From assembly GCF_002204745.1 (NCBI RefSeq), contig NZ_NIRR01000001.1:1-64000 (forward strand): DNA of 64,000 nucleotides, read 5' to 3'. The position numbers were made by a program, and so were the translations under genes. The stretch is from Hymenobacter amundsenii. Its GTDB lineage: Bacteria; Bacteroidota; Bacteroidia; Cytophagales; Hymenobacteraceae. This document shows positions 40,560 to 56,708 of the stretch, in pieces. The notes under the pieces were generated by a model. It did no database searches. It was given only the letters and a program-made list of their open reading frames with translations, and was not told where the DNA came from. How positions within the stretch are numbered: position 1 is the stretch's first letter; the number at the start of each line of letters is the position of its first letter.

Positions 40560-41387
40560 TCAGATCATCTGGTTGGTATTGAGCAGCGTGCTCATGGCTA
40601 CTTCCTCGTTCAGATACTTGGAAGAATAGCGGGTATCGGGGCCATTGATGAACATAGTGGTCTGGCCGCCGATAGATTCAATGATGGCGTCTTTCTGGTC
40701 CATGGGTAGGGCAGGGCAGCCGAGGCTGCGGCCCAGGCGGCCATTCTGGCGGATAAAATCCTCACTCACGTAATCGGCACCGTGCATCACGACGGAGCGC
40801 ATGAGGGCGTTGGTGTTGTAACCTTCATCGAGGCCAGCCAGCTTGAGCGAACGGCCGTGCTTACCCACATACTCGCCCTCAGTCACATAGAAACCCAGGC
40901 TGCTCATGTTCGACTCGTTCTCGTTAGAGAAATTGGTCGCCATGTTTTCGCCGGAGTTGTGGCCGTGGGCTACCAGCGTGTGGAACTTCACCTGCTTGGA
41001 TTCCAGATCGAGCACCCAAAGGCGTTTTTCGGTGGAGGGCAGACCGAAGTCGACAACCGTCAACATTTCTTTGTCACCGATTTTGCCATCTTTTTCGAGG
41101 TTGAGGTAACCAGTCATGGCCTTCTCAAATACCTCGAAACGCAGCCCCTGGTTTTCCACCTGCAAGTCGCGGTAGAGGTCGTGCAACTTCTGATCGAAGA
41201 TGTGGGCTTTGGTAAAAGCAACCGAAGGAACGTGCGTTTTTACGCTCGCAGCAGCCTTGGAGGGCGTTACCGGAGCAGCTAACGGCGTGGCCATAAATAA
41301 GGCAGCCACAAAAGGTAGCACCCGACGGACCATGCGACGCGATTTTAGCTTCAGCCGCTGACGGCTAACTACACTTTTATTTTCCAT
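40560..41387 (-). CDS. L,D-transpeptidase-like (YkuD_2) exported protein, paralogue 1
   Basis: A 275-residue protein with a basic N-terminus and a membrane/signal segment (about residues 22-42). The catalytic domain of the murein L,D-transpeptidase YkuD_2 type follows: MLTVVDFGLPSTEKRLWVLD, TLVAHGHNSGENMATNFSN, SLGFYVTEGEYVGKHGRSLK, VVMHGADYV and the catalytic Cys in GRLGRSLGCPALP. It would act in the periplasm on cell-wall peptides. The ATG at 41387 (MENKSVV) is chosen; the frame to 41576 extends into AT-richer intergenic DNA. Confidence 0.88.
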   Translation of the reverse strand: MENKSVVSRQRLKLKSRRMVRRVLPFVAALFMATPLAAPVTPSKAAASVKTHVPSVAFTKAHIFDQKLHDLYRDLQVENQGLRFEVFEKAMTGYLNLEKDGKIGDKEMLTVVDFGLPSTEKRLWVLDLESKQVKFHTLVAHGHNSGENMATNFSNENESNMSSLGFYVTEGEYVGKHGRSLKLAGLDEGYNTNALMRSVVMHGADYVSEDFIRQNGRLGRSLGCPALPMDQKDAIIESIGGQTTMFINGPDTRYSSKYLNEEVAMSTLLNTNQMI

Positions 41388-41689
41388 CGACACAGTTATT
41401 TTTCGGTTGCAGAAAGGGGCCACGCGCACACGTCCCGCCTGAGTGACTGTATACGCAGCGGCTCCGATGACGGTTGAATAAAGATTAGTCCGACCCGACA
41501 AACCATAAACATAGCCGTTGCCTAATTGATTCCCCGGCCCAGTGTAATTGGCCAAAGGAAGACCGCTATCCGGCAATACAACATTGGTGTTTTACTATTA
41601 AATATCCCGATTTTAGATGCTCCAATTCTGCTCTTTCATGCGCACCCCGCGCCGCTGATTTTTCCACAACCAATTCCCACAATTCCCAC
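41388..41689. other. Divergent intergenic region of 302 bases
   Basis: The region between paralogue 1 and the amylase gene is less GC-rich than the coding DNA around it. It must contain the promoters of both genes, but I see no exact TAnnTTTG box and no hairpin. No gene-like frame is present. Confidence 0.55.
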
Positions 41690-44056
41690 ATGCACACAAG
41701 TACCAATTCGTGGTGGCGCAAGCTCACCCTGGCCGCGGCTGCCCTTTTCGTTCTGGTTGGCCACCCGGCCCAAGCCCAAAAAGTAGTCCTGCAGGGCTAC
41801 TGGTGGGACTACTGGAACACCAACTACCCCAACGGTTGGGCTAACTACATTGCCCTGCTGGCCCCGCGCCTCAAAGCCATGGGCATTGATGCCGTCTGGC
41901 TGCCGCCGAGCATCAAGAATGGCAACCAGGGCAACGGCTACTCGCCCTTCGATAACTACGACCTCGGCGACAAGTACCAGAAGGGCTTCACTGCTACCCG
42001 CCTGGGCAACAAGGATGAGCTGCTGCGGGCCGTAGCCGTACTCCACGCCAACGGCATTGAGGTGGTCCAGGACATCGTGCTCAACCACAACGACGGGGCC
42101 GGCTCCCAGACCGGGGCCGGCGGCCCCGACCCGGCCGCCTGGGAGGATGGCTCGACCAGCAAGTATAAAAACTTCCGGTACGTGAGCTACACCAAGCCCG
42201 CCACCAGCGAAACGGCCGCCAATTACTTGGCCCGCAACGGCCGCTTCGCCAAGAACTGGCAGAATTTCAATCCTAACCCCGGCAACAACTCCACCTCCGG
42301 CGACTGGAACGCGGTGTACTTCGGACCCGACGTGAGCTATTACAACGGCTCCTACGGCCAGAGCTCCAACGCCACCTTCAACCCCACCCAAACCGCCGAC
42401 TACATGCGCAACAACGTGCGCGACTGGCTGGTGTGGTACAAGAAGCAGGAGGGCTTCGATGGCGTGCGGATGGACGCCGTGAAGCACTTCCCCGATTTCG
42501 CTTCCGAGGATTTCCTTTACAACCTGCAAACCAACGCCGGCTGGGCTAACGGCGGGGCCACCATGTACGCCGTGGGCGAATGGGTGGGCAGCAGCGGCCA
42601 GATGGACGGCTGGGTGGCCAACGTGCAAAACCGGGCCGGCACCTTCGACTTTTCGCTGCGTAATGCCCTGTACAGCATCGTGAGCGGGGGCGGCAACTAC
42701 GACCTTGGCTCGCTACCCGGCTCCCAGCAGAACACGCGGGTGGTCAACATCAACGGCACCTATGTGCACCGTACGGTACCCTTCGTGAACAACCACGACA
42801 CGTTCCGGCCCCAGCTCTCAACCGATGGCAACTACACCGGCTGGAACACTGGCTCGGAACTGGCCCCGCACATCGAGCCCTCCGACCCACGCATTTCGGC
42901 CGCCTACGCTGCCGCGCTGGCCGTCGATGGCTCGCCCCAGATTTTCTTCGAGGATTTATTCAACATTGGCAGCACCGGCAAGCGCTTCTCGCACCAGCCC
43001 ACCAGTACGGTTGATCTACCTCAGCGTTCCGACATCGAAAACCTGATTTGGTGCCACCAGAACCTGCATTTCAAGGACGGTGCTTACAAAGTGCGCTGGC
43101 AGGCTGCCGACCACCTCGTGATTGAGCGCAGCACCAAAGCCATCATCGGCATCAACGACAACTTCACGACCTGGCAGAACAGCACCGTTTCCTGCGATTT
43201 CGCGCCCGGCACCGTGCTCAAGGACTACTCCGGGGCTAACGGCACGGCCACCGTCACGGTGAGCGGCTCCCAGACGGTGAGCATCAACACGCCGCCCTGC
43301 AACGGCACGGCCGCCAGCGGCCGCCGCGGCTACTCGGTGTGGGCCCCCACGGGCATCGGCACCAACTATAACCGCGCCGCCCTGGCCACCACCCAGGAGT
43401 GGGAGTTAGCCGATGATCTGGGCGACTCGCACGCTTCGTCGTTGAAGCAGGGCGGGCAACTGCCAGCCGCTTCCGTGGCCTACCGCACGGCGGGCCGTAT
43501 TTACGTGGCCTCGGGCAAGACGATTACTTACACCCTCTTCCCTACCGATGCCACGCGCAGTCTGGCCATGGAGTTGGTGAGCAGCACGGGCAGCATCCTG
43601 AGTAGCAAAACCGGCACCGGCAACCTAACCGGCACCTATTCGCCCACGGCCACCGGCTGGATCACGCTGCGGGCCAAGAACGCCTCCACGGCCAACCCCG
43701 CCCAGCGCGCCTTTATCAAAGCCACCTACACCGCCCCGGCCGTGCTCACCAGCACCGCTTTGCGCGAAAGCACCGTTACGGCCACCACCACGGCCGCGCC
43801 CACCGGCACCGACCTGCTGGTGTACCCCAACCCTACCAGCGCCGAGCGCATCGATGTGGTACTCCAGACGCCCCGCGACCTGACCGCCACCCTGCGCCTG
43901 CTCGACCTCACCGGCCGCCTCGTGCACGAGCAGCGCGTGCGCCTCTACCCCGGCTCCACCGAGCAGCGCCTGAATCTGGGCCGCGCCCTACCCGCTGGCG
44001 TGTACCAGCTCAGCGTCCCGGAACTGAACCTCAGCCGGAAAGTAGTGGTGCGGTAA
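41690..44056 (+). CDS. Secreted GH13 alpha-amylase with type IX sorting domain
   Basis: A 788-residue extracellular starch-degrading enzyme. Order: signal peptide (residues 1-29, ending PAQAQ), GH13 TIM barrel (about 30-460), beta-rich region, and a C-terminal sorting domain. Barrel motifs: VVQDIVLNHN, the nucleophile in FDGVRMDAVKHF, the acid/base in YAVGEWVGSS and the third carboxylate region FVNNHDTFRP. The last about 75 residues (LLVYPNPTSAER... ending SRKVVVR) form a type IX secretion/Por-type sorting signal, so the enzyme is exported and probably anchored at the surface. It is monocistronic with its own terminator. Confidence 0.95.
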   Translation: MHTSTNSWWRKLTLAAAALFVLVGHPAQAQKVVLQGYWWDYWNTNYPNGWANYIALLAPRLKAMGIDAVWLPPSIKNGNQGNGYSPFDNYDLGDKYQKGFTATRLGNKDELLRAVAVLHANGIEVVQDIVLNHNDGAGSQTGAGGPDPAAWEDGSTSKYKNFRYVSYTKPATSETAANYLARNGRFAKNWQNFNPNPGNNSTSGDWNAVYFGPDVSYYNGSYGQSSNATFNPTQTADYMRNNVRDWLVWYKKQEGFDGVRMDAVKHFPDFASEDFLYNLQTNAGWANGGATMYAVGEWVGSSGQMDGWVANVQNRAGTFDFSLRNALYSIVSGGGNYDLGSLPGSQQNTRVVNINGTYVHRTVPFVNNHDTFRPQLSTDGNYTGWNTGSELAPHIEPSDPRISAAYAAALAVDGSPQIFFEDLFNIGSTGKRFSHQPTSTVDLPQRSDIENLIWCHQNLHFKDGAYKVRWQAADHLVIERSTKAIIGINDNFTTWQNSTVSCDFAPGTVLKDYSGANGTATVTVSGSQTVSINTPPCNGTAASGRRGYSVWAPTGIGTNYNRAALATTQEWELADDLGDSHASSLKQGGQLPAASVAYRTAGRIYVASGKTITYTLFPTDATRSLAMELVSSTGSILSSKTGTGNLTGTYSPTATGWITLRAKNASTANPAQRAFIKATYTAPAVLTSTALRESTVTATTTAAPTGTDLLVYPNPTSAERIDVVLQTPRDLTATLRLLDLTGRLVHEQRVRLYPGSTEQRLNLGRALPAGVYQLSVPELNLSRKVVVR

Positions 44057-44081
44057 GTTGCCCCACTCTTTCAAGCCAAAA

Positions 44082-44117
44082 GAAAGCCCCGTTGGAATAT
44101 TCCGGCGGGGCTCTTTC
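44082..44117 (+). terminator. Terminator of the amylase gene
   Basis: gaaagccccg pairs with cggggctcttt around a loop containing ttggaatattcc, 25 bases after the amylase stop. The T-rich tail is short. Confidence 0.8.
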
Positions 44118-44175
44118 AATATAATTGTACCCTGGATGGGCGCTCTATCTACAGCAGAAAAGGGGCCGCGAGCTT

Positions 44176-44203
44176 GTAGCGCGAAGCTCCAGCTTCGCGT
44201 ACC
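44176..44203. repeat. Small palindrome gcgcgaagct/agcttcgcgt
   Basis: A nearly perfect ten-base inverted repeat with a two-base spacer lies between the amylase and transpeptidase-like paralogue 2 genes. It has no T tract and may be a remnant of a dispersed repeat. Confidence 0.55.
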
Positions 44204-44245
44204 GTTGCCAGGCGTAAACTTGGCGATGTAGTGCGTTTCAACTTC

Positions 44246-45118
44246 CTACCGCCACCCCTGCGCCGCCAGTTGCCGGGCGGCCCCGGCAGCATCGAGCCAC
44301 TTCGATTCGAGGCCGGGGCCGCTGAGGTAGAGGCAGCCGCCCTCACCCACGGCGCTGATGATGGCGCGGTACTGGTCGGGGGGCAGGGCGGGACAGCCGC
44401 GACTGTTGCCGGTTTGGCCGTAACGTTGCAGGTAGGCGCGGCTCACGTAATCGGCCGAGTGGAGCACCACGTAGCGGCGCAGGGCGTTGTCGTTCTGGCC
44501 CGGATCGAGGCCGCGCAGGCGGCGCGAGAGGCCGTGTTTGCCCTGGTAGGTATCCTGGGTGCGGTAGAAGCCCAGAGCTGTGCAGGCCGATTTGATGGTG
44601 TTGGAGAAGTGCCGCGCCCGCAGCTGCCCCGAGCCGCGACCGTGAGCCACCGGGCTGCGGTGCAGCACGGTACCCGCCCGTAAATCGAGAACCCACAAGC
44701 GGGGTTCAGAAGAAGGCAGATCCATATCGGCTACAGCCAGCACACCGGGGCGACTGATTTTACCGGCTTGGCGCAGATTGAGGTAGCCCACGCAGGCCCG
44801 CTCCAATACTTCGGGCCGCAGCGCGGCAGCCTCCGAGCCAAGCTGGCGGTGCAGCTCCGCTACGGCCGCGTGCAGTTGCGTCGGCACGTTTTCCAGGGAT
44901 GCCACCGGCGTGAGGGCCATCGAATCGGGCACCGCGGGCGTAGCGGCAGCCCGGAAAACGGAATCAGCCGCGGCTGCCCGCACAGACGGGATGGAGCGCG
45001 CCGGTACTTCGCCCCCGGCCGACTGGCAGCCCGATAATGCGCTGCTTAGCCCGAGGGCCAGCCCCAAAAGTGAAGAATAACGGCGGCAGGAACGGGCAGA
45101 CAGTTTCAGGAAAGACAT
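44246..45118 (-). CDS. L,D-transpeptidase-like (YkuD_2) lipoprotein, paralogue 2
   Basis: A 290-residue protein with a lipoprotein signal (lipobox LSGC at about residue 30) and the same catalytic domain as paralogue 1: LAVADMDLPSSEPRLWVLDL, SPVAHGRGSGQLRARHFSN, ALGFYRTQDTYQGKHGLSRR, VVLHSADYV and catalytic Cys in GNSRGCPALP. The lipid anchor suggests outer-membrane or periplasmic attachment, in contrast to paralogue 1. The start at 45118 is preferred over a frame to 45151. It converges with the amylase gene. Confidence 0.88.
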   Translation of the reverse strand: MSFLKLSARSCRRYSSLLGLALGLSSALSGCQSAGGEVPARSIPSVRAAAADSVFRAAATPAVPDSMALTPVASLENVPTQLHAAVAELHRQLGSEAAALRPEVLERACVGYLNLRQAGKISRPGVLAVADMDLPSSEPRLWVLDLRAGTVLHRSPVAHGRGSGQLRARHFSNTIKSACTALGFYRTQDTYQGKHGLSRRLRGLDPGQNDNALRRYVVLHSADYVSRAYLQRYGQTGNSRGCPALPPDQYRAIISAVGEGGCLYLSGPGLESKWLDAAGAARQLAAQGWR

Positions 45119-45299
45119 GGGCAACGGCGGAATGGTCGCCAAAATCCGCATTTAGGACGCCGGATGCAAATACAATCTGCCGTATTATGGTTGGTGTGGC
45201 CGGGCTGATTCGGCGCCGACGCAGGCCGAGTCAGGTAGGGTCAACCGCTCAGCGCCGCGACACGAAGCAAAGTGCTTCGGTTGTCGTTGTCGGTAAAGC

Positions 45300-45336
45300 A
45301 AAAAATCTGCTTCCTGGCTTAGGAAGCAGATTTTTT
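45300..45336 (-). terminator. Terminator at the end of the DUF4331-TonB locus
   Basis: A perfect 16-base stem (aaaaaatctgcttcct/aggaagcagatttttt) with a five-base loop. It begins two bases after the stop codon of the 69-residue ORF. It can work in both directions and separates the locus from transpeptidase paralogue 2. Confidence 0.9.
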
Positions 45337-45338
45337 GG

Positions 45339-45548
45339 TTACCAGCGCTTGCCGGAGGCGTAGGGCGTGGAGCGGGCATGGGTGCGGCAATGGGACTGGG
45401 CCTTAAATTCCTGGCTGCGGCGTTGCGCCCCCAAGGGTGGCACGGGTGGTCCGCCGGATTCAAAGACGGGCTCGATGCTACTGGCGGTCAGCGTTTGCTG
45501 CACTATGGCCTGGATAGCGGAAGAAGTAGAAAGGGAGAAGAAAGACAT
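45339..45548 (-). CDS. Small ORF of 69 residues, uncertain
   Basis: Starts MSFFSLSTSSAIQAIVQQ and ends ...STPYASGKRW. It has one Cys, a Pro-rich middle (GGPPVPPLG) and a basic C-terminus. It matches no family I recognise. It is kept because it lies on the same strand 134 bases behind the TonB receptor and its stop codon abuts a perfect terminator, as expected for the last gene of an operon. It could be a chance frame. Confidence 0.4.
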   Translation of the reverse strand: MSFFSLSTSSAIQAIVQQTLTASSIEPVFESGGPPVPPLGAQRRSQEFKAQSHCRTHARSTPYASGKRW

Positions 45549-45682
45549 GGTTTAGGAAGTTGAAAGTGAAAAATTGGGGAGCCTATCGGTGCGGTTGCCG
45601 CAACACATGGGGCGTTGGCGCATCCCGGCGGCTCCCCATTGGATATAGCTGAGCACTACCGTTTCCGACGGCGGCCCGCAGC

Positions 45683-47983
45683 TTAGAAAAATACGCTGAC
45701 GTTGAGCTTGGCGTAAAACGGCGTGCCCGGCGTGAAGTGCAGCTCATCCACGGAAGTGCCCAGCGGCTCGGAACGCAGCCGAGTTTCAGTGGCAAACTGG
45801 GCTTGGTTCCACTCTACGTTGAGCAGGTTTTCGGCCGTGGCCCCCACCTGAAAACGCTTGGTGGTGTAGTTGACTACGGCGTCGAGCAGGAAATAACCCT
45901 GAGCCGTGATGCTGCCCTCGTCGTTGGCAGGCCGGTCGTCGATGTAACGGTAGCGCAGGCTGGTGTTGAAACCTTTGGGAGCTTTGTAAGTGAGGCCAGC
46001 CACGCTGGTCAAGCTGGGAGCCAGTGGAATGAAGTTGGCACTTTCGGGGGCATCCACCTGCCGGCCGCGGTTGAAATTCACGTCCAGATCGGCAAAGAGG
46101 CGGGGGGTGACTTGGTAGCGGGCGGCCAGGTCGAGGCCAAAGCGGCGGGTAGGCCCGGTGCTCTCCGTAATGCCCTCGTCGCCGATGTACACCAGCTCAT
46201 CCTGCAGGTGCAGGGCCCAGGCAGCCACGTTCACCACCAAGCTGGGCATGGGCTTGAAAGTACTGCCCGCCTCATAACCGATGGCCCTGGGCAGCACGTT
46301 GTCGTCGGCGGTGCCGCGCACCACGCCCCGCGCATCATTGGAGTGAAACCCGAAGCCCGAGCGCACGAACAGCTGAGCGTTGAGGCTGAACTGGTAGTAG
46401 AAGTTGAGCTTGGGCGACACCCGCGCCGCCGTGGCCCGCCCCGACACGGCATCCGTAGCATCGCGCTGGTCTCGGTAGCGAAAGCGAAACACGTCGAGCC
46501 GCAGGGCGGCGTTCAGGGTCAGACGCTCAGTCAGGGTTAGGGTTTCGTCGAGGTAGGCGTTGAAGTTCTGCTCGTTCACCCGCCCACTAATGGTGGTATC
46601 GGTCACCACGCGCCGCACGGCGCTAAGCAGGGTTACGTCGGTGGCATCGATGCGCGTGCCCACCCCGAAGGTGGTGTGCAGCGAGCGGCTGCCGAGCTGG
46701 GTGTCGCGGTCGTAGGTGCCGGTGTAGCCGACAATGTCGCGGTGGTCAGTCTGATAGATTTCGTCGCCGTTTTCGGGATTGTTGAGGAAAAAAGTGAAGT
46801 TGGAGTACAGCCCGAAGTTGTAGCGCGAGTAGTACGCCTGTTGGCGCAGCACAGCGTCGCCAGGCAGAGCCGTGGTCAGGATAGCCGAGGCGTTGGTGCG
46901 GTTGGTGCGGCCGCCCTCGCTGGGGTCGATGCTGCCAAAGCGGGAAATAATACCCTGCTCCACGCCCCGCTCAGGAATCTGGCCGCTGGCGTTCCAGTTG
47001 GAAGTGAAGTGCGAGCCCAACAGCGTAAGCGAGGTTCGGTCGGTGAGCAGGCCGGTGTACTTGGCCAGTCCGTTGAAGCGCTTGAAGCTCTGGGGCTGGT
47101 CGAAGTAGGCGTTGGTGTACAGGTACTCGGCCGCCACGTAGGCGCTTTCCGACTTCTTGGAAAACAGGTGGCGCTTGTCGTTACCCAGCAAATCCAGCAT
47201 CACCAACCCGCGGTAGGTATCGAACTGACCTACTTCCATCTTCACCTGGCTGGCATCAAGCCGGGTTTTGGTGAGGAACTCGCCCGCGCCGGCCGTGGCA
47301 AAGTCGCCGAATCGGGCCGTGTACGGGCCTTTATATACTTTCAGCTGCTCCACCGTTTCGGGGATAACGAAGTGGAAGTCGGCGTAGCCCTGGCCGTGGC
47401 CGTGGCTCACCATGTTCACCGGCAGCCCGTCGATGCTCACGGCGAAGTCAGTGCCGTGGTCCACGTCGAAGCCGCGCAGGAAAATCTGCTCGGCCTTGCC
47501 GCCGCCCGCATGCTGGGCAATAAACAGGCCCGGCACCAGTCGCAGCAGGTCCTGGGCCGAGTTCACGGGCCGCAGTAGCTTATCGATATGGCTAATGGCG
47601 GCCAGGCTCTGGTTGGGGTCGCGGGGCTGGTTCACGGTCACCTCGCTCAGATTGAGTGCCATTGTGGGCAAGGCTAGGGCCACAGCGCGGTTTTCGCCCG
47701 CGGCCAGGGTCAGCGGCAGTGTCTGGCCCCGGTAGCCCAGCGCACTTACCCGCAGCGTGTAGGTGCCGGCCGCAATGCCGCCGAGCCGGAAATTCCCCAG
47801 CGCATCGGTGGCCGTGCCGCCGGACTGGCCTTCCAAGCCTACGCTCACACCCGGCAGGGGCTGGCCCGAGAGTGAATCGGCCACGGTGCCACGCAACACA
47901 GCGGTGTTCTGGGCCTGGGCTTCGAGCCCAAACCCACACGCGGCCAGCATAATGCTGGTCGCAATCCAATAAAAAAGGCGCAT
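45683..47983 (-). CDS. TonB-dependent outer-membrane receptor
   Basis: A 766-residue receptor. The signal peptide (1-28) is followed by a carboxypeptidase-like regulatory domain (about 30-110), a plug domain and a 22-strand-type barrel ending LNVSVFF. The plug carries EQIFLRGFDVDHGTDFAVSI and NMVSHGHGQGYADFHF, a His-containing loop that could contact a metal ligand. There is no SusD partner, so it is not a polysaccharide utilisation receptor. It lies in a run with HupE-type and DUF4331 genes. The start at 47983 is the ATG directly before the signal peptide. Confidence 0.93.
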   Translation of the reverse strand: MRLFYWIATSIMLAACGFGLEAQAQNTAVLRGTVADSLSGQPLPGVSVGLEGQSGGTATDALGNFRLGGIAAGTYTLRVSALGYRGQTLPLTLAAGENRAVALALPTMALNLSEVTVNQPRDPNQSLAAISHIDKLLRPVNSAQDLLRLVPGLFIAQHAGGGKAEQIFLRGFDVDHGTDFAVSIDGLPVNMVSHGHGQGYADFHFVIPETVEQLKVYKGPYTARFGDFATAGAGEFLTKTRLDASQVKMEVGQFDTYRGLVMLDLLGNDKRHLFSKKSESAYVAAEYLYTNAYFDQPQSFKRFNGLAKYTGLLTDRTSLTLLGSHFTSNWNASGQIPERGVEQGIISRFGSIDPSEGGRTNRTNASAILTTALPGDAVLRQQAYYSRYNFGLYSNFTFFLNNPENGDEIYQTDHRDIVGYTGTYDRDTQLGSRSLHTTFGVGTRIDATDVTLLSAVRRVVTDTTISGRVNEQNFNAYLDETLTLTERLTLNAALRLDVFRFRYRDQRDATDAVSGRATAARVSPKLNFYYQFSLNAQLFVRSGFGFHSNDARGVVRGTADDNVLPRAIGYEAGSTFKPMPSLVVNVAAWALHLQDELVYIGDEGITESTGPTRRFGLDLAARYQVTPRLFADLDVNFNRGRQVDAPESANFIPLAPSLTSVAGLTYKAPKGFNTSLRYRYIDDRPANDEGSITAQGYFLLDAVVNYTTKRFQVGATAENLLNVEWNQAQFATETRLRSEPLGTSVDELHFTPGTPFYAKLNVSVFF

Positions 47984-48102
47984 ATGTGCAGCCACGAGGC
48001 GACGCGCTGCCTACTGGCAGCACGTCTGAGTCAGAAGATAAATTGACAGCGGCCCACGCTCGTGGCGCGACCTCCAGAGCTCTTTATGGGCTCTGCTACA
48101 AC

Positions 48103-48489
48103 TTATCCGCGACGGGGCGGCTGCTTAACTACTGGCCGGATGCCGACGGGCACCCGCGGCGCGGCGGCCGGGTGGTACGTAAAATAATGCGGAAAGTGCC
48201 GCGCTTGCAGACGGGGCACTTCGGGTAGGCAGTGCAAATCGATGCTCTTGAACGACGCTAGCAACTGGGCTGGCGTGCTATGTTCGGGTTGCGCCTGTAC
48301 CGCCGACTGGTCGCCATTACAGGTGTCGAAGCAGTCGAGGCGCAAGTAATTCTCGTGCTGGCAGGCGGCGCTGTGCACATACGGATGCGCCGCCGATGGC
48401 CCCACTGGCTCCGGCCGCCCAACTAGGCCCGCACCCAACCCTCCCAGATAGGGCAGCAAGAGCAGCAGAAGGAGCAGGTGGCGGAGCAT
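48103..48489 (-). CDS. Small exported Cys/His-containing protein
   Basis: A 128-residue protein with a strongly hydrophobic signal peptide (MLRHLLLLLLLLPYLGG). The mature part has four Cys (AACQ, LDCF, DTCN, LHCL) and several His (HPYVHS, RHFPHYFTYH) and ends Pro-rich. I do not recognise a family. The pattern suggests disulfides or metal binding in the periplasm. It lies between the HupE-type and TonB receptor genes with gaps of 90 and 119 bases. Confidence 0.75.
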   Translation of the reverse strand: MLRHLLLLLLLLPYLGGLGAGLVGRPEPVGPSAAHPYVHSAACQHENYLRLDCFDTCNGDQSAVQAQPEHSTPAQLLASFKSIDLHCLPEVPRLQARHFPHYFTYHPAAAPRVPVGIRPVVKQPPRRG

Positions 48490-48579
48490 TTTAAGGGTCA
48501 GTGTATAGCTAAGGGCAGCAAAGTATTAGAGGTGCTTCGCCTTCGCTTGGCATGAGAATTCTTTTTTCGTCCTACTGGC

Positions 48580-49245
48580 TCAACTCAGCCGTTCGAACGT
48601 CCAGTAGGCGGCCATCAGGCCGATGGCTACGGAGGCTGGCACCAGCACCCGGCGCTTATACCAGGGCTTGTCGGCCGCCCAGCGGCCGATGAGCAGCCAA
48701 GCCAGCAGAATTACCGAAATCTGGCCCAGCTCGACGCCCACATTGAAAGCCACCAACGACTCTACGAACATGTTGCGCGGCAAGCCCAGGCTAGTCAGGG
48801 CTCCGGCAAAGCCCAGGCCGTGGAGCAGTCCGAAGCCGAACACCACCACAATCCGCCACGGGTTAATCTTGGCCACCACAATATTCTCGATGGCCACAAA
48901 CAGAATGGAGAGGGCAATGAGCGGTTCTACCAAACTAGTCGGCGGCGATACCACACCATACATGGCCAGCCCCAAAGTAATCGAGTGCGCCACTGTGAAG
49001 GCCGTGGCCTGCCACAACACCGGCTTCAGGCGTGGTTCCAGCAGGTACAGACTCAGCACGAACAGCACGTGGTCGAGGCCCAGGGGCAGGATGTGGGTGT
49101 AGCCGAGTTTGAGGTAGGTAAAAAAAACGTCGGTTCGTGAAAGCTTGCTCAGGTCAGCATCGATAACGTGCGCGGCAGCTAACCCCGGCAGCAACAGCAG
49201 CCCGGCCACAGCCAGCAACACACGAAACGGACGAGCAGAGCGCAT
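48580..49245 (-). CDS. HupE/UreJ-family inner-membrane protein
   Basis: A 221-residue membrane protein of the HupE/UreJ type, whose studied relatives move nickel or cobalt for hydrogenase and urease. The signal-like first segment is followed by about six helices with conserved polar motifs inside: LGLDHVLFVLS, TVAHSITLG, FGLLHGLGFAG and FNVGVELGQ. There is no hydrogenase or urease in the window. The ATG at 49245 is preferred; a TTG at 49281 would add 12 residues. It probably serves the neighbouring TonB receptor by taking its ligand across the inner membrane. Confidence 0.9.
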   Translation of the reverse strand: MRSARPFRVLLAVAGLLLLPGLAAAHVIDADLSKLSRTDVFFTYLKLGYTHILPLGLDHVLFVLSLYLLEPRLKPVLWQATAFTVAHSITLGLAMYGVVSPPTSLVEPLIALSILFVAIENIVVAKINPWRIVVVFGFGLLHGLGFAGALTSLGLPRNMFVESLVAFNVGVELGQISVILLAWLLIGRWAADKPWYKRRVLVPASVAIGLMAAYWTFERLS

Positions 49246-49321
49246 CAGGGGCGTAAGGAGAGGTGATTTCAGGAGGCGCAAAAGCTAAACTGGTTATGCT
49301 AACGGCCAAGGTATGGCGTCT

Positions 49322-50647
49322 CTACCGGACAGCCAGCAGCTTACGGCCTTCGTCGGCGAGGTCGACTGAGAGATAAGGATTAATGGCCAACGCCTCTTTA
49401 ATGAGGGCTTGCCCCTCGGCAGACTGTCCGTTGCGGGAGGCAATCAGCCCGGCCCGGCACAGCAGCACGGGGCTTTTAGAATTGGTGCGGCGGGCCGCTT
49501 TCATATAGGTAGCAGCTTCCGGAAACTCGCCACGCTTATAATGAACCCATGCCATGGTTTCATTTACGTCGATGTTGTCCGGACGCCGGTCGTATTCAAT
49601 TTTTGCGTGCTTGAGGGCATTGTCCAGCTCCCCGGTTTTGAGGTAGGCGTAAGCCAGCTCCCGGTCAGCGTAGTGGCCCATAGCCTCGTTGTTTTCGGCT
49701 TCATCAGCAGCAGCAGAAAGCATGTCAATGGCCTCGCGGGCCATTTTCTTCGATTTAAAGGGCTGATTGTTCTGGTGATAGAGGTCAGCCAGCTCATCGG
49801 CGAAGGCGTAATCCTTCACCGTGCTGCGGGCCTGTTCCAAGTACTTGATGGCCTCCGGGTAATTCTGGCGGGCCTGCTCCACCCGGCCCAAACCCGCGAG
49901 GGCGTAGGCGTAGTGCGGCCGGACCTTCAGGGCATAGCGGTAGGCTTCTTCGGCGTTTTTCAGGTCGCCGGTGGTTTCGTAGAGGTGGCCCAGCGTTACG
50001 CGTGCCCACTCAGTCTGCTCCAGGCCAATGTAGCCGGCCTGCACGGCCATCTGCATGGCCTCAATAGCCCCGGGCAGGTCGCCATGGATTTCACGCAGGT
50101 ACGATACCCGCGAATAGGAGCGCAAATCGGGGCGCACCTGATTCATTTTATCAGCCATTTTGATGGCTTCCGGGTAACGGCCCAGCTCCACGTTGGCATC
50201 GCAGAGCAAGCCGTACACGAAAGCGTTGTTCGAGTTCACCGCCACCGCGTGCTCGGCCACGGCCAGTCCTTCCGAAAAATGGTGCTGGGTCAGGCTTAGC
50301 GAGGCCTTGCAGCACAGGGCCTCAAAATTGTCACGGTCATCGCGCAGGGCTTCATCGAGCAGCTGCATGGCTGCTGTGTCGTAGTAGGGGTGGTTGCCAG
50401 TTACGCGGGCTTCCTGCATGTAAGCCTGGGCCAGCAGCACCTTGCTTTTGTTGTCGCCGGGCTTGGCCCGTAACTGGGCTAGCAGCCCCTGAATGGCGGC
50501 TTTGGTGTTCAGCCATTCACCACCAGCCGCTAAGTCGCCGTGCCGCTCCCGCAGCTGCGGAACCGGGTCGGGCTTCTGGGTCAGGAAAATGGCCGCACCA
50601 GCTGCTACAAACAGCACGATGAGCAGAGAGTAGATGTATTTTCTCAC
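49322..50647 (-). CDS. TPR-repeat protein with N-terminal membrane anchor
   Basis: A 441-residue protein: a short basic N-terminus with one hydrophobic segment (RKYIYSLLIVLFVAAGAAIF) and then about nine tetratricopeptide repeats, for example RVTLGHLYETTGDLKNAEEA and YALAGLGRVEQARQNYPEAI. TPRs serve as docking surfaces. The start is GTG at 50647, giving a canonical signal anchor; a TTG at 50680 overlaps the preceding hairpin. It sits between DUF4331 and HupE-type genes, spacing 76 bases to the latter, and probably assembles or stabilises the system. Confidence 0.87.
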   Translation of the reverse strand: MRKYIYSLLIVLFVAAGAAIFLTQKPDPVPQLRERHGDLAAGGEWLNTKAAIQGLLAQLRAKPGDNKSKVLLAQAYMQEARVTGNHPYYDTAAMQLLDEALRDDRDNFEALCCKASLSLTQHHFSEGLAVAEHAVAVNSNNAFVYGLLCDANVELGRYPEAIKMADKMNQVRPDLRSYSRVSYLREIHGDLPGAIEAMQMAVQAGYIGLEQTEWARVTLGHLYETTGDLKNAEEAYRYALKVRPHYAYALAGLGRVEQARQNYPEAIKYLEQARSTVKDYAFADELADLYHQNNQPFKSKKMAREAIDMLSAAADEAENNEAMGHYADRELAYAYLKTGELDNALKHAKIEYDRRPDNIDVNETMAWVHYKRGEFPEAATYMKAARRTNSKSPVLLCRAGLIASRNGQSAEGQALIKEALAINPYLSVDLADEGRKLLAVR

Positions 50648-50680
50648 GAGATTGAGTTGGTTGAAGGTGAGGTAGAGCAA

Positions 50681-50716
50681 GAAAGGGAACTGACCGCGAA
50701 GCCAGTTCCCTTCTTC
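50681..50716 (-). terminator. Terminator or attenuator hairpin between DUF4331 and TPR genes
   Basis: The minus strand forms aagggaactgg and cagttccctt arms around cttcgcgg, with a tcttgc tail. It ends 34 bases before the TPR start, leaving no room for a separate promoter after it, so partial termination in one operon is plausible. Confidence 0.7.
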
Positions 50717-50770
50717 GTCATTGGCAAGATAGCCGAACTCACCCAGGGCCCGGCTATCAACCCGTCATCA

Positions 50771-50803
50771 ACCGGCCGACTCACCATGGGTGAATGAGCC
50801 GGT
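50771..50803 (-). terminator. Second hairpin downstream of the DUF4331 gene
   Basis: An imperfect stem (accggctcattcacc/ggtgagtcggccggt) begins 16 bases after the DUF4331 stop. It has no T run, so it may protect the 3' end of the upstream message rather than terminate. Confidence 0.5.
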
Positions 50804-50818
50804 CGATTCAGTACGGGC

Positions 50819-52921
50819 TTACTTTGTCACAACCAGCTTCATGGATTGTAGCACGGTATTACCGGTAGCAATCGTGAGCACGTAGGTGCCTGCCGCTACT
50901 TCCGGACCAGCTTTCCAAACCTGGTCGTAAGTACCAGGCTTGTGCTGACGGCCATTCATGAGCGTGGCTACCCGACGACCCGTCAGATCACTCACGAACA
51001 TAGAGAGCGGCGCCTTTGTGGCCACTTCGTAATGCACAGTGGTGCTTTCGCTGAATGGGTTAGGATAGTTCTGCGCGGCGGCTACTACTTCGGGCTTCAG
51101 GCTAAAGCCGACGGCTCCTAGCTGCGAAGTAACCGTGGTCTGGGCCTTCGTACCGGCCCAGGGTAGCTGTGCGTAGGGGAAGCCCGAGCGGAACGTGGTG
51201 TCGTTCTTCTCAACGCCCGTGCGGAAGGTCAGCACGTTGGTCAGGCCGTTAGCCGATTCGTAGGGCAGACCAATGGCAGCCAGCACTACACCACCCACGG
51301 CTTGCAGCTCAATGCGCACTATGTCATCCTCCAGACGACGACCGTTTGGGAAGCCGTCCATGTTCGGAATGAATTCCAGATTGGCGTTCGTATTGTAGCG
51401 CGTGTCGGTCAGGCCCAGTACCGCCGCGGCCAGCAGGCCTTCGGAGCTGAAGTCGGCCGAAGAGCGCGACGTTGTGGGCACAGCCATGTTCAGGCGCAGC
51501 ATATCTCCACCGATACCGGCGGCGGTGGTGGTGCTCTCGATAAGCGGCAAGAAGTTATTGATGAACGGCTTACCAGCTGCCAGCGGGTTACCCATAGGTT
51601 TGCCGGTTGCCAACTGATACGGCCGTACGTTTGGTACCCCCGTGTGGAAGATAGGCAGTAGGTCTACTGAGCGAGGCTTGCCCGCACGAAGCAGGTATTC
51701 GCCGTAGCCACCATTGGCCACCTTGGCGAAAGCCGTGCCGTTTACATCAGCGGCCGGAGCATTCAGCAGGCCCGAAAGGCCAGCTTTTCCGTTAGCGAAG
51801 TCGTACATGTTCAGCGAGTTGCGCTGAATACGTAGGGGAGCCAGACCGGGGACAGAAGTACCGAAATAACCATCACCTTCAGCCATGTACAGGCCCAGCT
51901 CAGGGTTGGAGAGGTAATCTTCGGTCGAGGCCTTCTCCGTATAGGGAGTGTTCGAGTTCCAGGCATCCTTCGCGCCGATGGGCACGATAACCTCGTTCGT
52001 CAGCGGCATGCCCAGGCGCGATACCTGCACATAATCGCCGGAGTGCGTGCGCGTGCCATCGGTGTTGATGGTACGCATCGCGGGGCGGCTGGCCGAGGCC
52101 CACACACCAATGACGTAGTTGCCGTCGAGGATGTTGGCGGCCTGCGCGCCAGTCTTGCCATCCTTCTGCAGCTTATTGATGGGGATTTGCAGGGCGATGG
52201 TGTGCGTGTTCTTGCGGGCCAAGCCGTCGGGGGCCTTGGCGGGCCGAATATTGGCCAGATCGAAGATACCACCTAAGTCCGCGAAGAACGGGTCATCGAC
52301 CGGGCCGCAGTACACCTTAATATCGCCGTCCACAGTCTGGATGGCGTCGGTAAAGAGCTTCTCGTAGCTGGGGGCATTTAACCCAACTGGCATGGTGATG
52401 GAGCGCGGGCCGATGTTGGGCGGCGGAACTACCCCGTCGGTCTTGAGCTGAGTGAAAGCGCCGCCATTGACGCTGCGTTCCATGGTGTAGCTCGCCTTTA
52501 GGTTCTGCTTCCCCAGCCGAATGTTGAAGAACGTGGTTGGGTCCTCATTCACCCGCTTGAAGGTGAAGCGGTAGGTGATGTCGTCGGCATTCACCCGCTT
52601 CTCATCCCCAGGAGTAGCACCCGAGTTTTTGATGTGAATCTCGTAGCGGATGTTTTCGCCGAACGTGTTATAGTTCGGGCCGCCCTGGGGCAACTCCAAC
52701 GGAATGTAGTTGGCGATGACGTTGATCATCTCCGCGTTGTTGGGGTCGCGGAAAGCGTACACATCGGTGTTGTCGGCCAACGGGTCGTCGGCAATCAGCG
52801 GAGCTTCGCGGTGGCTGGAAGCTTCTAGGGGGGCGTGTTGTCCACTCCAGGCTAGCAGAGCGGCCACGGTGGTGGCAGCCAGTGCGATAGGGAGAATCGG
52901 ACGCGTAAACGTTTTCTTCAT
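50819..52921 (-). CDS. DUF4331-domain protein with type IX sorting domain
   Basis: A 700-residue exported protein. Signal peptide (1-33), then the DUF4331 region from ASSHREAPLIADDPLADNTD to about residue 600, with DVYAFRDP and other family blocks. The C-terminal about 80 residues (NYPNPFSESTTVHYE ... SMKLVVTK) are a type IX secretion sorting domain, which places the protein at the surface. The role of DUF4331 is unknown. It is the first gene of a same-strand run with TPR, HupE-type, Cys/His and TonB receptor genes, and is proposed as the surface capture component. Confidence 0.93.
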   Translation of the reverse strand: MKKTFTRPILPIALAATTVAALLAWSGQHAPLEASSHREAPLIADDPLADNTDVYAFRDPNNAEMINVIANYIPLELPQGGPNYNTFGENIRYEIHIKNSGATPGDEKRVNADDITYRFTFKRVNEDPTTFFNIRLGKQNLKASYTMERSVNGGAFTQLKTDGVVPPPNIGPRSITMPVGLNAPSYEKLFTDAIQTVDGDIKVYCGPVDDPFFADLGGIFDLANIRPAKAPDGLARKNTHTIALQIPINKLQKDGKTGAQAANILDGNYVIGVWASASRPAMRTINTDGTRTHSGDYVQVSRLGMPLTNEVIVPIGAKDAWNSNTPYTEKASTEDYLSNPELGLYMAEGDGYFGTSVPGLAPLRIQRNSLNMYDFANGKAGLSGLLNAPAADVNGTAFAKVANGGYGEYLLRAGKPRSVDLLPIFHTGVPNVRPYQLATGKPMGNPLAAGKPFINNFLPLIESTTTAAGIGGDMLRLNMAVPTTSRSSADFSSEGLLAAAVLGLTDTRYNTNANLEFIPNMDGFPNGRRLEDDIVRIELQAVGGVVLAAIGLPYESANGLTNVLTFRTGVEKNDTTFRSGFPYAQLPWAGTKAQTTVTSQLGAVGFSLKPEVVAAAQNYPNPFSESTTVHYEVATKAPLSMFVSDLTGRRVATLMNGRQHKPGTYDQVWKAGPEVAAGTYVLTIATGNTVLQSMKLVVTK

Positions 52922-53575
52922 GATAAAAATAGGTTGGAAAAGGGTGAAAAAAACTGCCTTTCAACGGACAGCACAAGAGTTACGCAAAGCTTGGTGAGAG
53001 CCTGTAAATGTTGGGTGAGCTAGTGATTGGCGTGTAGTGAGGTGGCACCTACTCCAAAGGCCTCAATAGAGGAGGAAACAGATACTACTAAGTGTTCCTA
53101 CGGAGTAGATCTTTTCCGTGGTTTTTGATTGCCATAATCATGTACAATTATTTATCTAGGTATCAGAAAAATAGTTCCTTTCCTTGACTATCAGTCACAG
53201 AAACAGATTTTCAGGCCTAAATGCATCTCAACTACAGAGGAGCAGCAGCAATCCGCAAAAAATGCACTTATTATCTATACTGTTGAGCTTTCTATTTTAA
53301 GTCAACGAATCGCTAACAAGATACTATCGATTCAATAGGGGAGAAAGCCCCCTTTCCACATTACCTTAATCTTGTACAATCGAGCAAAGGATTTCCACAA
53401 AAAACAGCTTCCCTTGCTTACCAGCAGTATGGCGCACTGGTTGGGAAGGTAACCAGCGACTGCTGCCGGGCATTTGTTGCGTAATTTTGGGTCTGGTCGG
53501 CGCCCCGCCGTCAGCGGTGGTGGGGGCCTTTTCTTCTCGTGATTTTCCTGGCGGTCCACGGCCCGTTTGCTTGTT
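52922..53575. other. Divergent AT-rich intergenic region of about 650 bases
   Basis: This stretch between the DUF4331 and HscA-like genes is visibly AT-rich (for example 53130-53340) in contrast to the surrounding GC-rich DNA. It must contain the promoters of both. A -7-like taattttg lies at 53482-53489. No gene, tRNA or obvious structured RNA was seen; an unnoticed small RNA or old mobile DNA is possible. Confidence 0.6.
53482..53489 (+). promoter_or_regulatory. Candidate -7 promoter element for the HscA-like gene
   Basis: Reads taattttg, an exact TAnnTTTG match, 86 bases before the ATG at 53576. No -33 box is seen at the usual distance. Confidence 0.42.
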
Positions 53576-55438
53576 ATGGCTAAAGTTGCAATCAACCTTT
53601 CTACCGGTGCTATTCAGCAGGAAGAAATTATTGTCGGTATTGATTTGGGCACCACCAACTCGCTGGTGGCCTACATTCATCCCGAAAACCGCCAGCCCCT
53701 AGCCATCAACGACCAGGGCCGGGGTACTATCGTGCCTTCGGTAGTCCACTTTCCGGGTGGCTCCGATGCGCCCATTGTGGGCACCGATGCCAAGGAGTAC
53801 CTGCTCACCGACCCCCAAAACACGATTTACTCGGTGAAGCGTCTGCTCGGCAAGAGCTACCACGACTTGGGCCAGCACGCCGGCGGCCTGGGCTACAAGG
53901 TAATTGACGACAACTCGGAGGGGCTGGTAAAAATCCGGGTTGGTGAGCGGTTCTACTCGCCCATCGAGCTATCGGCCGAAATCCTTAAGGAGCTGCGCCA
54001 ACGGGCCGAGCACGCCCTCAAAACGCCCGTCAATAAGGCCGTGATTACGGTACCGGCCTACTTCAACGACTCCCAGCGCCAAGCCACCCGCGACGCCGGT
54101 CGGCTGGCAGGCCTGGAGGTACTGCGTATTGTGAATGAGCCTACCGCCGCCGCCCTGGCCTACGGCATCGGCCTCAACCCCGACGAGGAAAAAACGGTGG
54201 CCGTTTACGATTTGGGCGGCGGCACCTTCGACGTGAGCATCCTACGCCTACACCAGGGCATTTTTGAAGTCCTGAGCACTAACGGCGACACCTACCTGGG
54301 CGGCGATGACCTCGACCGGATTGTTGCCGAGCACTGGACCCAGCAACACGAGTTAGCCGACCGACTTGATGGCAACGGCCCACTGCGGCAGGAGCTACGG
54401 CTGCTGGCCGAATCGGCCAAGCGCTACCTAAGCCAGCACGACGACTTCGCCGGCAACCTGACCGACGACGTAGTAGTGCGCCTGACCCGCACCGAGTTCG
54501 AAACCTTGGCCCACCCGCTGGTCGAGCGGACCATCGACTCGTGCCGCCGCGCGTTGGCCGACGCCAGCCTCACAGCTGCCGACCTCGACGCCGTGCTGCT
54601 GGTAGGTGGCTCGACCCGGGTACCACTGGTGTATGACGCCGTATCGGATTTTTTCGGCCAGCCGGCCAACAAGTCGCTCAACCCCGACGAAGTGGTGGCG
54701 CTGGGCGCGGCCATTCAGGCCGACATTCTGGCTGGCAACCGCCGCGACGTACTGCTGCTCGACGTGACGCCTCTCACGCTGGGCATTGAAACGCTGGGCG
54801 GCCTCATGGACCCCATTATTCCGCGCAACTCCAAAATCCCAACCAAGGCTGGCCGCCAGTACACCACCAGCGTCGACGGGCAAGTGAACCTGAAAATTTC
54901 GGTGTATCAGGGTGAGCGGGACGTCGTAAAGGAGAACCGCAAGCTGGCCGAATTCGACCTGCGCGGCATCCCGGCCATGCCGGCCGGCTTGCCAAAGGTT
55001 GATGTGAATTTCATTCTCAATGCCGACGGTATTCTAAAAGTAGAGGCCATAGAATTGCGCTCGGGTACCCGCCAGGAAGTGGAAATCAAGCCCCAGTATG
55101 GCCTCACCGATGACCAAGTGGAAAAGATGCTGATGGATTCGCTCACCTTCGCCCGCGAAGATGTAGCGGCCCGTATGGTAATCGAAGCCCGCACCGTGGC
55201 CGAGCAGATGCTCTACCAGGTGGAGCGGTTCGTGGCTAAAAACGGCCAGCACCTCACCCCCGACGAGCTGACTGCCACCCAGGCTGGCGTCACTCAACTC
55301 AAAGCCTCCCTCGAAACCCAGGAAAAAGACGTGATACTGAAGGCCGTTGATGAGCTCGAAGAGCTTACCCGTCCCTTCGCCGAGCGGGTCATGAACATCA
55401 GCATCAACCAGGCCATGGCTGGGAAGAAAATTGAGTAG
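53576..55438 (+). CDS. hscA: Hsp70-family chaperone, HscA-like
   Basis: A 620-residue Hsp70. The N-terminus [17 protein letters not shown] before [14 protein letters not shown] resembles HscA rather than DnaK, as do the total length of about 620 and the end without a Gly-rich tail. ATPase motifs: [45 protein letters not shown] and [12 protein letters not shown]. The substrate domain contains [14 protein letters not shown]. HscA helps transfer iron-sulfur clusters from IscU, but no isc or hscB genes are here, so a general role cannot be excluded. The start at 53576 is preferred over the frame at 53567. Confidence 0.87.
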
Positions 55439-55445
55439 TAGTTAG

Positions 55446-55494
55446 GAACTTCATTCAGCGCCTCAAGCCACATGCTTTGAATGAAGTTCTTTCT
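55446..55494 (+). terminator. Likely terminator of the HscA-like gene
   Basis: A 12-base perfect stem (gaacttcattca/tgaatgaagttc) with a 21-base loop, followed by tttctt, starts 8 bases after the stop codon. It ends 15 bases before the anmK ATG, so anmK may be reached by read-through. Confidence 0.65.
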
Positions 55495-55508
55495 TAATCC
55501 TTCACCGA

Positions 55509-56708
55509 ATGCAACGCCTAGCCCAGCTCGCCCAGCAACCCAGCCGCCGAATTATCGGCTTGATGTCGGGCACCTCACTCGATGGGCTCGATGTAGCCCT
55601 GTGCCATTTGCACGGGCATGGGCTGGCAACGCGGCTGGAACTAGAGCACTTCGCTACGGTGCCCTATGATGAAGAAACGCGGCGGCGCATCCGGCAGGTG
55701 TTCGCCCGCGAGCAGGTAAGCCTAGAGTACCTGACGCTGCTGCATGCCTGGCTGGGCCGTTTTCATGCCGAGTTGGTACTTGGCTGCCTGCGGGAGTGGC
55801 AGGTAGCGCCCGCCGAGGTAGATCTGCTGGCCAGCCACGGCCAAACGGTGTACCATGCCCCGGCCCATCAGCACCAGCACCCCGATTTTCCGGGTCTGAA
55901 CGCCACGCTGCAACTCGGCGACGCCGACCATATGGCCGTGGGGACCGGTATCATCACGCTCAGCGACTTCCGGCAGAAGCACATTGCCGCGGGCGGCGAA
56001 GGGGCACCATTAGCGGCATACGGCGACTACCTGCTGCTAGGCAGCTCCACCGAAGAGCGCCTGCTACTCAACCTAGGCGGCATTGCCAACTTCACCTACC
56101 TACCCCGCACCGGCCCGGATGCCACCGCTGCATTCAGCACCGATACGGGCCCTGGCAACACCCTACTCGACGCGGTAGTACGCCAGCACTTTTTCCACTT
56201 AGCTTACGACGAGGATGGCCTTCTGGCGGCGGCGGGCGCGGTTCATGCAGGATTGTTGGCCGAACTACTGGCGCACCCGTTCTTTGGGGCTCCGCTGCCT
56301 CGCACAACTGGGCCTGAGTTATTCGGCACGGTATACCTGCAGGCAGCCCAGGCCCATACTGGCACTACCCAGCTCTCCGTTGAGGACTTGCTGGCCACGC
56401 TGGTGGAGCTAAGTGCGGCGGGTGTCGCGCAGGCTGCCCGGCAAGCCTTGGGCGAACAACCCGCTTTGGCCGTGTACCTGAGTGGGGGCGGAGCCCACAA
56501 CCCAGCGCTACGGGCGGCCCTGCAACGCCATCTGCCCGCCTGCTGTTTCGCCACTACCGCCGACCTCGGCGTGCTACCCGATGCCAAGGAAGCCATTCTC
56601 TTCGCCCTGCTCGCCAATGAAGCGGTGGCCGGCCAACCCATTAGTATTGGCACGGGCCGGCAGTGCGTTCCGGCCGTACGCATGGGCAAAATATCGTTGC
56701 CAGATTAG
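55509..56708 (+). CDS. anmK: Anhydro-N-acetylmuramic acid kinase
   Basis: A 399-residue sugar kinase that phosphorylates and opens 1,6-anhydro-MurNAc during peptidoglycan recycling. Motifs: IIGLMSGTSLDGLDVALC (phosphate-binding), ASHGQTVYH, LNLGGIANFTYLP, DTGPGNTLLDAVV and YLSGGGAHNPALR. It is slightly longer than usual through its N-terminus (QRLAQLAQQPSR), but the ATG at 55509 is the only convenient start. It follows the chaperone gene by 70 bases and converges with a small exported protein. Confidence 0.95.
   Translation: MQRLAQLAQQPSRRIIGLMSGTSLDGLDVALCHLHGHGLATRLELEHFATVPYDEETRRRIRQVFAREQVSLEYLTLLHAWLGRFHAELVLGCLREWQVAPAEVDLLASHGQTVYHAPAHQHQHPDFPGLNATLQLGDADHMAVGTGIITLSDFRQKHIAAGGEGAPLAAYGDYLLLGSSTEERLLLNLGGIANFTYLPRTGPDATAAFSTDTGPGNTLLDAVVRQHFFHLAYDEDGLLAAAGAVHAGLLAELLAHPFFGAPLPRTTGPELFGTVYLQAAQAHTGTTQLSVEDLLATLVELSAAGVAQAARQALGEQPALAVYLSGGGAHNPALRAALQRHLPACCFATTADLGVLPDAKEAILFALLANEAVAGQPISIGTGRQCVPAVRMGKISLPD

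Follow-up and report, generated by a model that had tools for sequence, protein, structure and literature searches.

A DUF4331, HupE/UreJ and TonB receptor gene cluster of Hymenobacter amundsenii as a candidate transition-metal acquisition module

The first 64,000 nucleotides of contig NZ_NIRR01000001.1 of Hymenobacter amundsenii (RefSeq assembly GCF_002204745.1, positions 1 to 64,000 of the forward strand; hereafter the window) contain a same-strand cluster encoding a DUF4331 protein, a TPR protein, a HupE/UreJ-2 permease, a small exported Cys/His protein, a TonB-dependent receptor and a short open reading frame (ORF). We give this cluster about an even chance of being a transition-metal acquisition module with Ni(II)/Co(II) as the likeliest cargo, where signal-peptide cleavage, metal binding, direction of transport, cargo and order of hand-over are all read from sequence. 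As a class, an uptake role appears well supported, because relatives of the receptor are encoded close to NikR, HoxN or hydrogenase genes and because conserved histidines are predicted at mature N-termini; which metal is carried, and its capture by DUF4331, are what we infer beyond that. The module is conserved and apparently not described before: our literature search found no mention of DUF4331, of PF14224 or of DUF4331 together with HupE, and most subscription journals lay outside its coverage, so the module may already be published.

In the proposed route, the type IX secretion system (T9SS) would display the DUF4331 protein on the cell surface, where it would gather a metal ion or a small complex of one, perhaps at an X-X-His N-terminus. 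Passage through the outer membrane would fall to the TonB receptor; the permease HupE/UreJ-2 would then accept the metal at its N-terminal His and pass it into the cytoplasm, with the anchored TPR protein possibly serving as a scaffold joining the parts. So arranged, the system would resemble a metal importer made of a TonB receptor and a permease, to which a surface protein has been added. An earlier note on this DNA, made from the letters alone, had proposed metal uptake across both membranes by these genes. Uptake as a class is supported (by gene linkage, receptor kin and His signatures), while the small Cys/His protein drops out as a core part. The proposal ties DUF4331, a widespread family without assigned function, to a receptor family that has relatives linked to nickel genes and to a permease with an N-terminal His, in a phylum where outer-membrane passage of scarce Ni, Co and Cu is poorly known.

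Conserved linkage within and beyond Bacteroidota

The five same-strand genes are present at the coordinates given by the earlier note, four of them with Pfam matches, and the sixth small ORF has relatives elsewhere. The gene-neighbourhood comparison suggested by the earlier note found the linkage conserved across Bacteroidota and a DUF4331-TPR-transporter core that reaches other phyla; the lack of linkage that the note had named as refuting its reading was not observed. Among the 80 named loci that we collected, 59 have 6 kb of downstream sequence, and these include a TPR gene in 55, the receptor in 36 and HupE in 32. The order is nearly fixed at 28 such loci in Hymenobacter (TPR 26, HupE 26, receptor 24, Cys/His gene 24), but HSP70, YkuD and amylase flanks are likewise conserved in this genus, so its synteny taken by itself proves little. 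At 28 loci of other Bacteroidota, the flanking genes differ and TPR is found at 27, the receptor at 18, HupE at 7 and the small Cys/His gene at none; this protein turned up only in Hymenobacter and is therefore not a core part of the module. Gene order also varies, as in L046 (TonB-DUF4331-TPR-HupE). An extracytoplasmic function (ECF) sigma factor gene lies near DUF4331 at 11 of the 28 non-Hymenobacter loci and an RskA-type anti-sigma gene at 8, with neither at any of the 28 Hymenobacter loci.

In our phylum sample, 48 of 395 genomes contain DUF4331. The receptor family (E up to 1e-50) is present in 30 of these 48 and lies at most 5 kb from DUF4331 in 24 of the 30; by our rough estimate, chance alone would place the two so close in far fewer than 1% of genomes. 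HupE is commoner in genomes with DUF4331 (32/48) than in those without it (83/347), counting genomes that are not independent of one another, and lies within 7 kb of DUF4331 in 10 of the 32 genomes holding both. Distances from DUF4331 to the receptor and to HupE were compared by eye.

Outside the phylum, 29 plasmid records carry DUF4331, and seven of the 13 regions that we examined combine it with a TPR-type gene and a transporter of the HupE or NicO type. The HupE/UreJ variant occurs in Pseudoalteromonas, Marinobacter, Lichenicola and a comamonad, with the TPR match below cut-off in the last two. Three Streptomycetaceae have a gene annotated as 'nickel transporter' (NicO-type) at the HupE position, the encoded proteins scoring below the NCBIfam cut-off, and in one Streptomycetaceae a class F sortase gene stands between DUF4331 and TPR. 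Sigma and anti-sigma genes lie upstream of DUF4331 in Pseudoalteromonas too, and Miltoncostaea has DUF4331 with TPR only. Just upstream of DUF4331, four of five Rhodobacterales plasmids carry an A24 prepilin peptidase gene.

Receptor, permease and DUF4331 protein

The receptor has a PF07715 plug and a PF00593 beta-barrel over cut-off and scores 58 bits against the SusC/RagA model TIGR04056 (cut-off 368). Nine plasmid-borne relatives score 246-333 bits against it, compared with 50 bits for an Fe-type receptor and 53.9 bits for the best match among solved structures. Much of the plug signature QHSGxGKANQYFLRGFNLDHGTD...NMxxHxHGQGYADLNF is common to the window receptor and the nine relatives.

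NikR is present in 8 of the 46 plasmid records with this receptor family and lies within 2 kb of the receptor in seven (Methylomagnum, Polymorphobacter, a comamonad, two Afipia, Novosphingobium RL4 and Paraburkholderia). HoxN is at most 5 kb from the receptor in at least five records (Paraburkholderia, two Cupriavidus, Sphingopyxis 113P3 and Novosphingobium ES2-1; distances from 60 of 111 HoxN records) and stands beside it in Bradyrhizobium. Hydrogenase or hyp genes are close to the receptor in Cupriavidus, Afipia and Bradyrhizobium, and cobalamin genes in M. extorquens CM4. Overall, NikR, HoxN or cobalamin genes lie no more than 5 kb from the receptor in eight of 12 annotated regions; the remaining four comprise Hymenobacter GOD-10R, which has HupE, and Indioceanicola (HupE about 7 kb away), Sphingobium and Methylobacterium XJLW, which have none of these genes. 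Three further regions are unannotated, and in one of them, Novosphingobium RL4, NikR nonetheless lies near the receptor. For comparison, among 17 records with the Fe-type receptor of M. extorquens CM4, none has NikR within 5 kb and one has it at 5.6 kb; because the source of this receptor shares the neighbourhood with cobalamin genes, it makes an imperfect control. The plain reading is that nickel or cobalt is the cargo of much of the NikR-linked clade.

NikR-linked TonB receptors for nickel have been listed, among them Bll6948, Daro_3944 and FrpB4 (PMC11247825), and our guess is that the plasmid relatives are orthologues of Bll6948 or Daro_3944. The window receptor has the family and plug signature in common with receptors encoded next to NikR, HoxN or hydrogenase genes; the window locus differs in having no NikR, in the added surface DUF4331 and TPR proteins and in its Bacteroidota host with a T9SS. 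SusCD loci likewise place a surface protein beside a TonB receptor with a carboxypeptidase-regulatory-like N-terminal domain. Unlike those loci, the window cluster has no SusD match among the locus proteins scanned, as the earlier note had said, its surface protein is a T9SS cargo and its receptor falls below the SusC/RagA cut-off. On a Hymenobacter GOD-10R plasmid (L194:2838-13675), a receptor of the same family (50% identity) lies with a cytochrome c peroxidase, a DUF3500 gene, HupE/UreJ, a regulator and two more DUF3500 genes; DUF3500 may stand in for DUF4331 there.

The permease belongs to HupE_UreJ_2 (PF13795, 163.4 bits against a cut-off of 24.5). Among 78 DUF4331-linked sequences, a His directly follows the signal site in 72 by rule and in 74 by eye (L095 and L163 failed the rule), compared with a His-bearing leader in 2 of 19 readable unlinked HupEs from other places in the phylum. 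The full set of 80 counts some genomes twice and takes in two sequences away from DUF4331 loci (L193 and L194, which both have the His); three hits that lacked the core motif were set aside. The unlinked loci were 20 chosen by hand, of which L222 (wrong frame) was dropped. From this His to the GxDH core there are 27-32 residues at linked Bacteroidota loci (37 in L107 and L108), and leader residues around the His are variable; in our alignment the His is invariant at position 1 by choice of start. The window motif HILPLGLDH (HxxPxGxDH) is invariant in 30 aligned relatives except for a 6-residue insert in L108. It is related and non-identical to the first-transmembrane-helix motif HPXXGXDH given for HupE/UreJ (PMC7689651), which the window protein lacks. 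A second HupE/UreJ-2 match in the window genome (L068:3666-4207) is split in two, the parts lying in different open frames.

According to PMC12537917, DUF6702 and the Ang domains of HupE/UreJ-2 anglerases are metal binders with an N-terminal His; neither the sections of it that we examined nor a term search of it names DUF4331. Like the anglerases Ang-1 and Ang-2, the window permease combines PF13795 with a His right after the predicted signal site. Anglerases, however, carry a folded Ig-like Ang domain (in L182, L183 and L185 some 170 residues precede the core), in place of which the window HupE has a leader of about 30 residues; with no folded Ang domain, the window system is not a strict anglerase. 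A folded domain may thus be dispensable for N-terminal His binding. Four linked HupEs have no leader (L077, L086, L087 and L165), and a gene of the type of the DUF6702 sequesterase adjoins three of them: L077 by Pfam match, L087 and L165 by similarity. DUF6702 is absent from the window locus, where the nearest role would be that of the HupE leader.

The DUF4331 protein was claimed by the earlier note to be secreted by the T9SS, and its tail indeed exceeds the TIGR04183 cut-off (30.5 against 23 bits), while falling below that of the Pfam model PF18962 (19.7 against 27). In 167 distinct contexts, the residue preceding SSHREA is always small (A 154, S 10, G 3), position -3 is small or aliphatic and position -2 is free, the pattern of a signal-peptidase site. 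The regular expression used itself required SSHREA, and hits without SSHREA were five truncated or frame-broken pieces. The 80 named loci were also collected partly through the SSHREAP pattern; 57 contexts found by hidden Markov model, eight plasmid contexts and the split forms described below are free of this bias. Marinovum has ASHREAP instead of SSHREAP, and ADHID(A/T)P occurs at the same place in all ten first halves of split forms. The mature protein would thus start Ser-Ser-His or Ala-Asp-His, a possible amino-terminal Cu(II)- and Ni(II)-binding (ATCUN) site. The ATCUN arrangement is a free N-terminal X-X-His. The context would also fit cleavage two residues further on, which would yield a His at position 1.

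DUF4331 seems to be a surface protein delivered via different routes. At ten loci (L090-L093, L095-L100) it is split between two short neighbouring genes (about 217 and 184 aa; the product of the latter begins like a lipoprotein), with TPR still adjacent and often the receptor. At L070:9423-14000 it forms a fusion with four CHRD domains and a T9SS tail, and tandem DUF4331 genes are common (L039, L051, L052, L114-L116, L129, L156).

We drew no inference from structural comparison of DUF4331. Its AlphaFold2 model (mean predicted local distance difference test score, pLDDT, 67; predicted template modelling score 0.78) gave a best Foldseek E of 0.098 and a VIA-align Z of at most 7.3, the rows listed being antibody-type chains. 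For the HupE model (pLDDT 88), VIA rows reached at most Z 7.6 and represent common helical arrangements. Neither the DUF4331 profile nor HupE matched any solved structure by sequence at E up to 1.

Choice of metal and competing explanations

Several observations weigh against the nickel or cobalt uptake module proposed here. In the 99.98%-complete window genome there are no matches to urease, NiFe hydrogenase (the earlier note had likewise seen no urease or hydrogenase gene in the window), CobN, acireductone dioxygenase or LarA, and among the 48 genomes with DUF4331, five have urease, three hydrogenase and 40 neither. The window receptor is only about 33% identical to the NikR-linked clade, so its cargo may differ from the clade's, and in eleven Sphingobium relatives HoxN shares the record with the receptor but is more than 90 kb off. 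HupE is distant from DUF4331 in 22 of the 32 genomes that hold the pair, as is the receptor in 6 of 30; in those six genomes, no metal transport family was found among ten neighbouring proteins scanned. In five Rhodobacterales (L184, L212-L215), type II secretion genes adjoin DUF4331 and no transporter is seen in the region. SSHREAP is conserved past the His, so the motif may be structural.

We consider Ni(II)/Co(II) the most likely cargo, with Cu(II) a close second. Urease (counted if full-length and above 180 bits, lower-scoring model hits being excluded) occurs in 5 of 48 genomes with DUF4331 and 7 of 347 without, an enrichment that is not independent because three of the five are Hymenobacter. 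Hydrogenase over cut-off occurs in 3 of the 48, compared with 9 of 32 hand-picked genomes without DUF4331. A Ni-superoxide dismutase search matched nothing, its controls included, and is therefore uninformative.

The missing nickel enzymes, in the window genome and in 40 of the 48, make copper a serious rival: the same uptake module would handle Cu(II), through the ATCUN site of DUF4331 and the N-terminal His of HupE, for cuproenzymes such as haem-copper oxidases. Both ATCUN and N-terminal His sites favour Cu(II). The characterized anglerases lean the same way, Ang-1 having a higher affinity for Cu (74 nM) than for Ni (220 nM) and Ang-2 being a Cu binder, whereas DUF6702, which binds Ni, Co and Cu, prefers Ni (PMC12537917). 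Since the receptor kin are linked to nickel- and cobalt-type genes rather than copper genes in eight of 12 annotated regions, and a NicO-type Ni/Co transporter takes the HupE position in three Streptomycetaceae, we regard a copper module as rather unlikely.

A role in metallation or protection strikes us as improbable. Here DUF4331 would be a secreted metalloprotein or enzyme supplied with metal, or the set would sequester excess surface metal as a defence. The ECF sigma and anti-sigma genes near DUF4331 recall stress regulons, a glutathione peroxidase or globin gene is found at some loci, many DUF4331 residues besides the His are invariant among homologues, and excess Ni raises expression of a HupE/UreJ-like gene in Sphingobium ba1 (PMC5557971). 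The adjoining TonB receptor points instead to import, and the transporter-free Rhodobacterales loci, where none is needed beside DUF4331, also speak against metallation. Inherited synteny without joint function, which the conserved Hymenobacter flanks would allow, is very improbable and already contradicted by linkage that persists across families and phyla with other flanks and orders, as in L046.

Returning to the uptake module, we tentatively raise the possibility of a multi-phylum metal relay of histidines exposed by signal-peptide cleavage, in which metal would pass from the X-X-His of DUF4331 to a His at position 1 of HupE or NicO. Surface delivery would be interchangeable: Bacteroidota would rely on a T9SS tail, Rhodobacterales on type II secretion genes next to DUF4331 and one Streptomycetaceae on a sortase gene, with TonB entry as an addition in Bacteroidota.

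Layout of the locus and its remaining genes

Table 1. Features of the cluster, in window coordinates.
Feature	Position	Strand	Remarks
DUF4331 gene	50819..52921	-	700 aa, signal peptide, T9SS sorting tail; PF14224 E 3e-125
Proposed mature N-terminus codons of DUF4331 (Ser35-Ser36-His37)	52811..52819	-	X-X-His, candidate ATCUN site; predicted cleavage and binding
Hairpin between DUF4331 and TPR genes	50760..50830	-	-36 kcal/mol in 71 nt
TPR protein gene, N-terminal membrane anchor	49322..50647	-	Pfam TPR models; conserved start
HupE/UreJ-2 permease gene	48580..49281	-	PF13795 E 4e-48; short leader ending AAA, then His38
HupE His38 codon, proposed mature His1	49168..49170	-	His conserved in linked HupEs; predicted cleavage
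Small exported Cys/His protein gene	48103..48489	-	no Pfam/NCBIfam family
TonB-dependent receptor gene	45683..47995	-	family with proteobacterial members beside NikR/HoxN genes
Receptor plug motif SHGHGQGYADFHF	47369..47407	-	within receptor gene
69-aa ORF	45339..45548	-	relatives at other Hymenobacter loci
Palindromic terminator	45300..45336	-	perfect 16-bp stem, 5-base loop

From DUF4331 to the receptor, the intergenic gaps are 171 (to the TPR GTG start), 40, 90 and 107 bases. Because a strong hairpin lies 3' of the DUF4331 gene, one transcript for the whole cluster cannot be assumed; this hairpin perhaps sets unequal expression of DUF4331 and TPR. The perfect terminator that the earlier note saw closing the cluster is present, though absent from the output of an automated terminator scan. 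An Rfam scan at gathering threshold returned no riboswitches in positions 41000-56000 of the window or at 7 of the 80 named loci.

The TPR protein matches several Pfam TPR models above cut-off, and homologues favour the GTG at 50647 as start over the TTG at 50680 that the ORF list gives. In the small exported protein, which has four Cys, residues H39, C43, C53, C57 and H86 recur in 95% or more of 25 Hymenobacter sequences. The 69-aa ORF is probably a real gene, since similar ORFs at other Hymenobacter loci share a HARSxPYxSGKRW-like C-terminal end.

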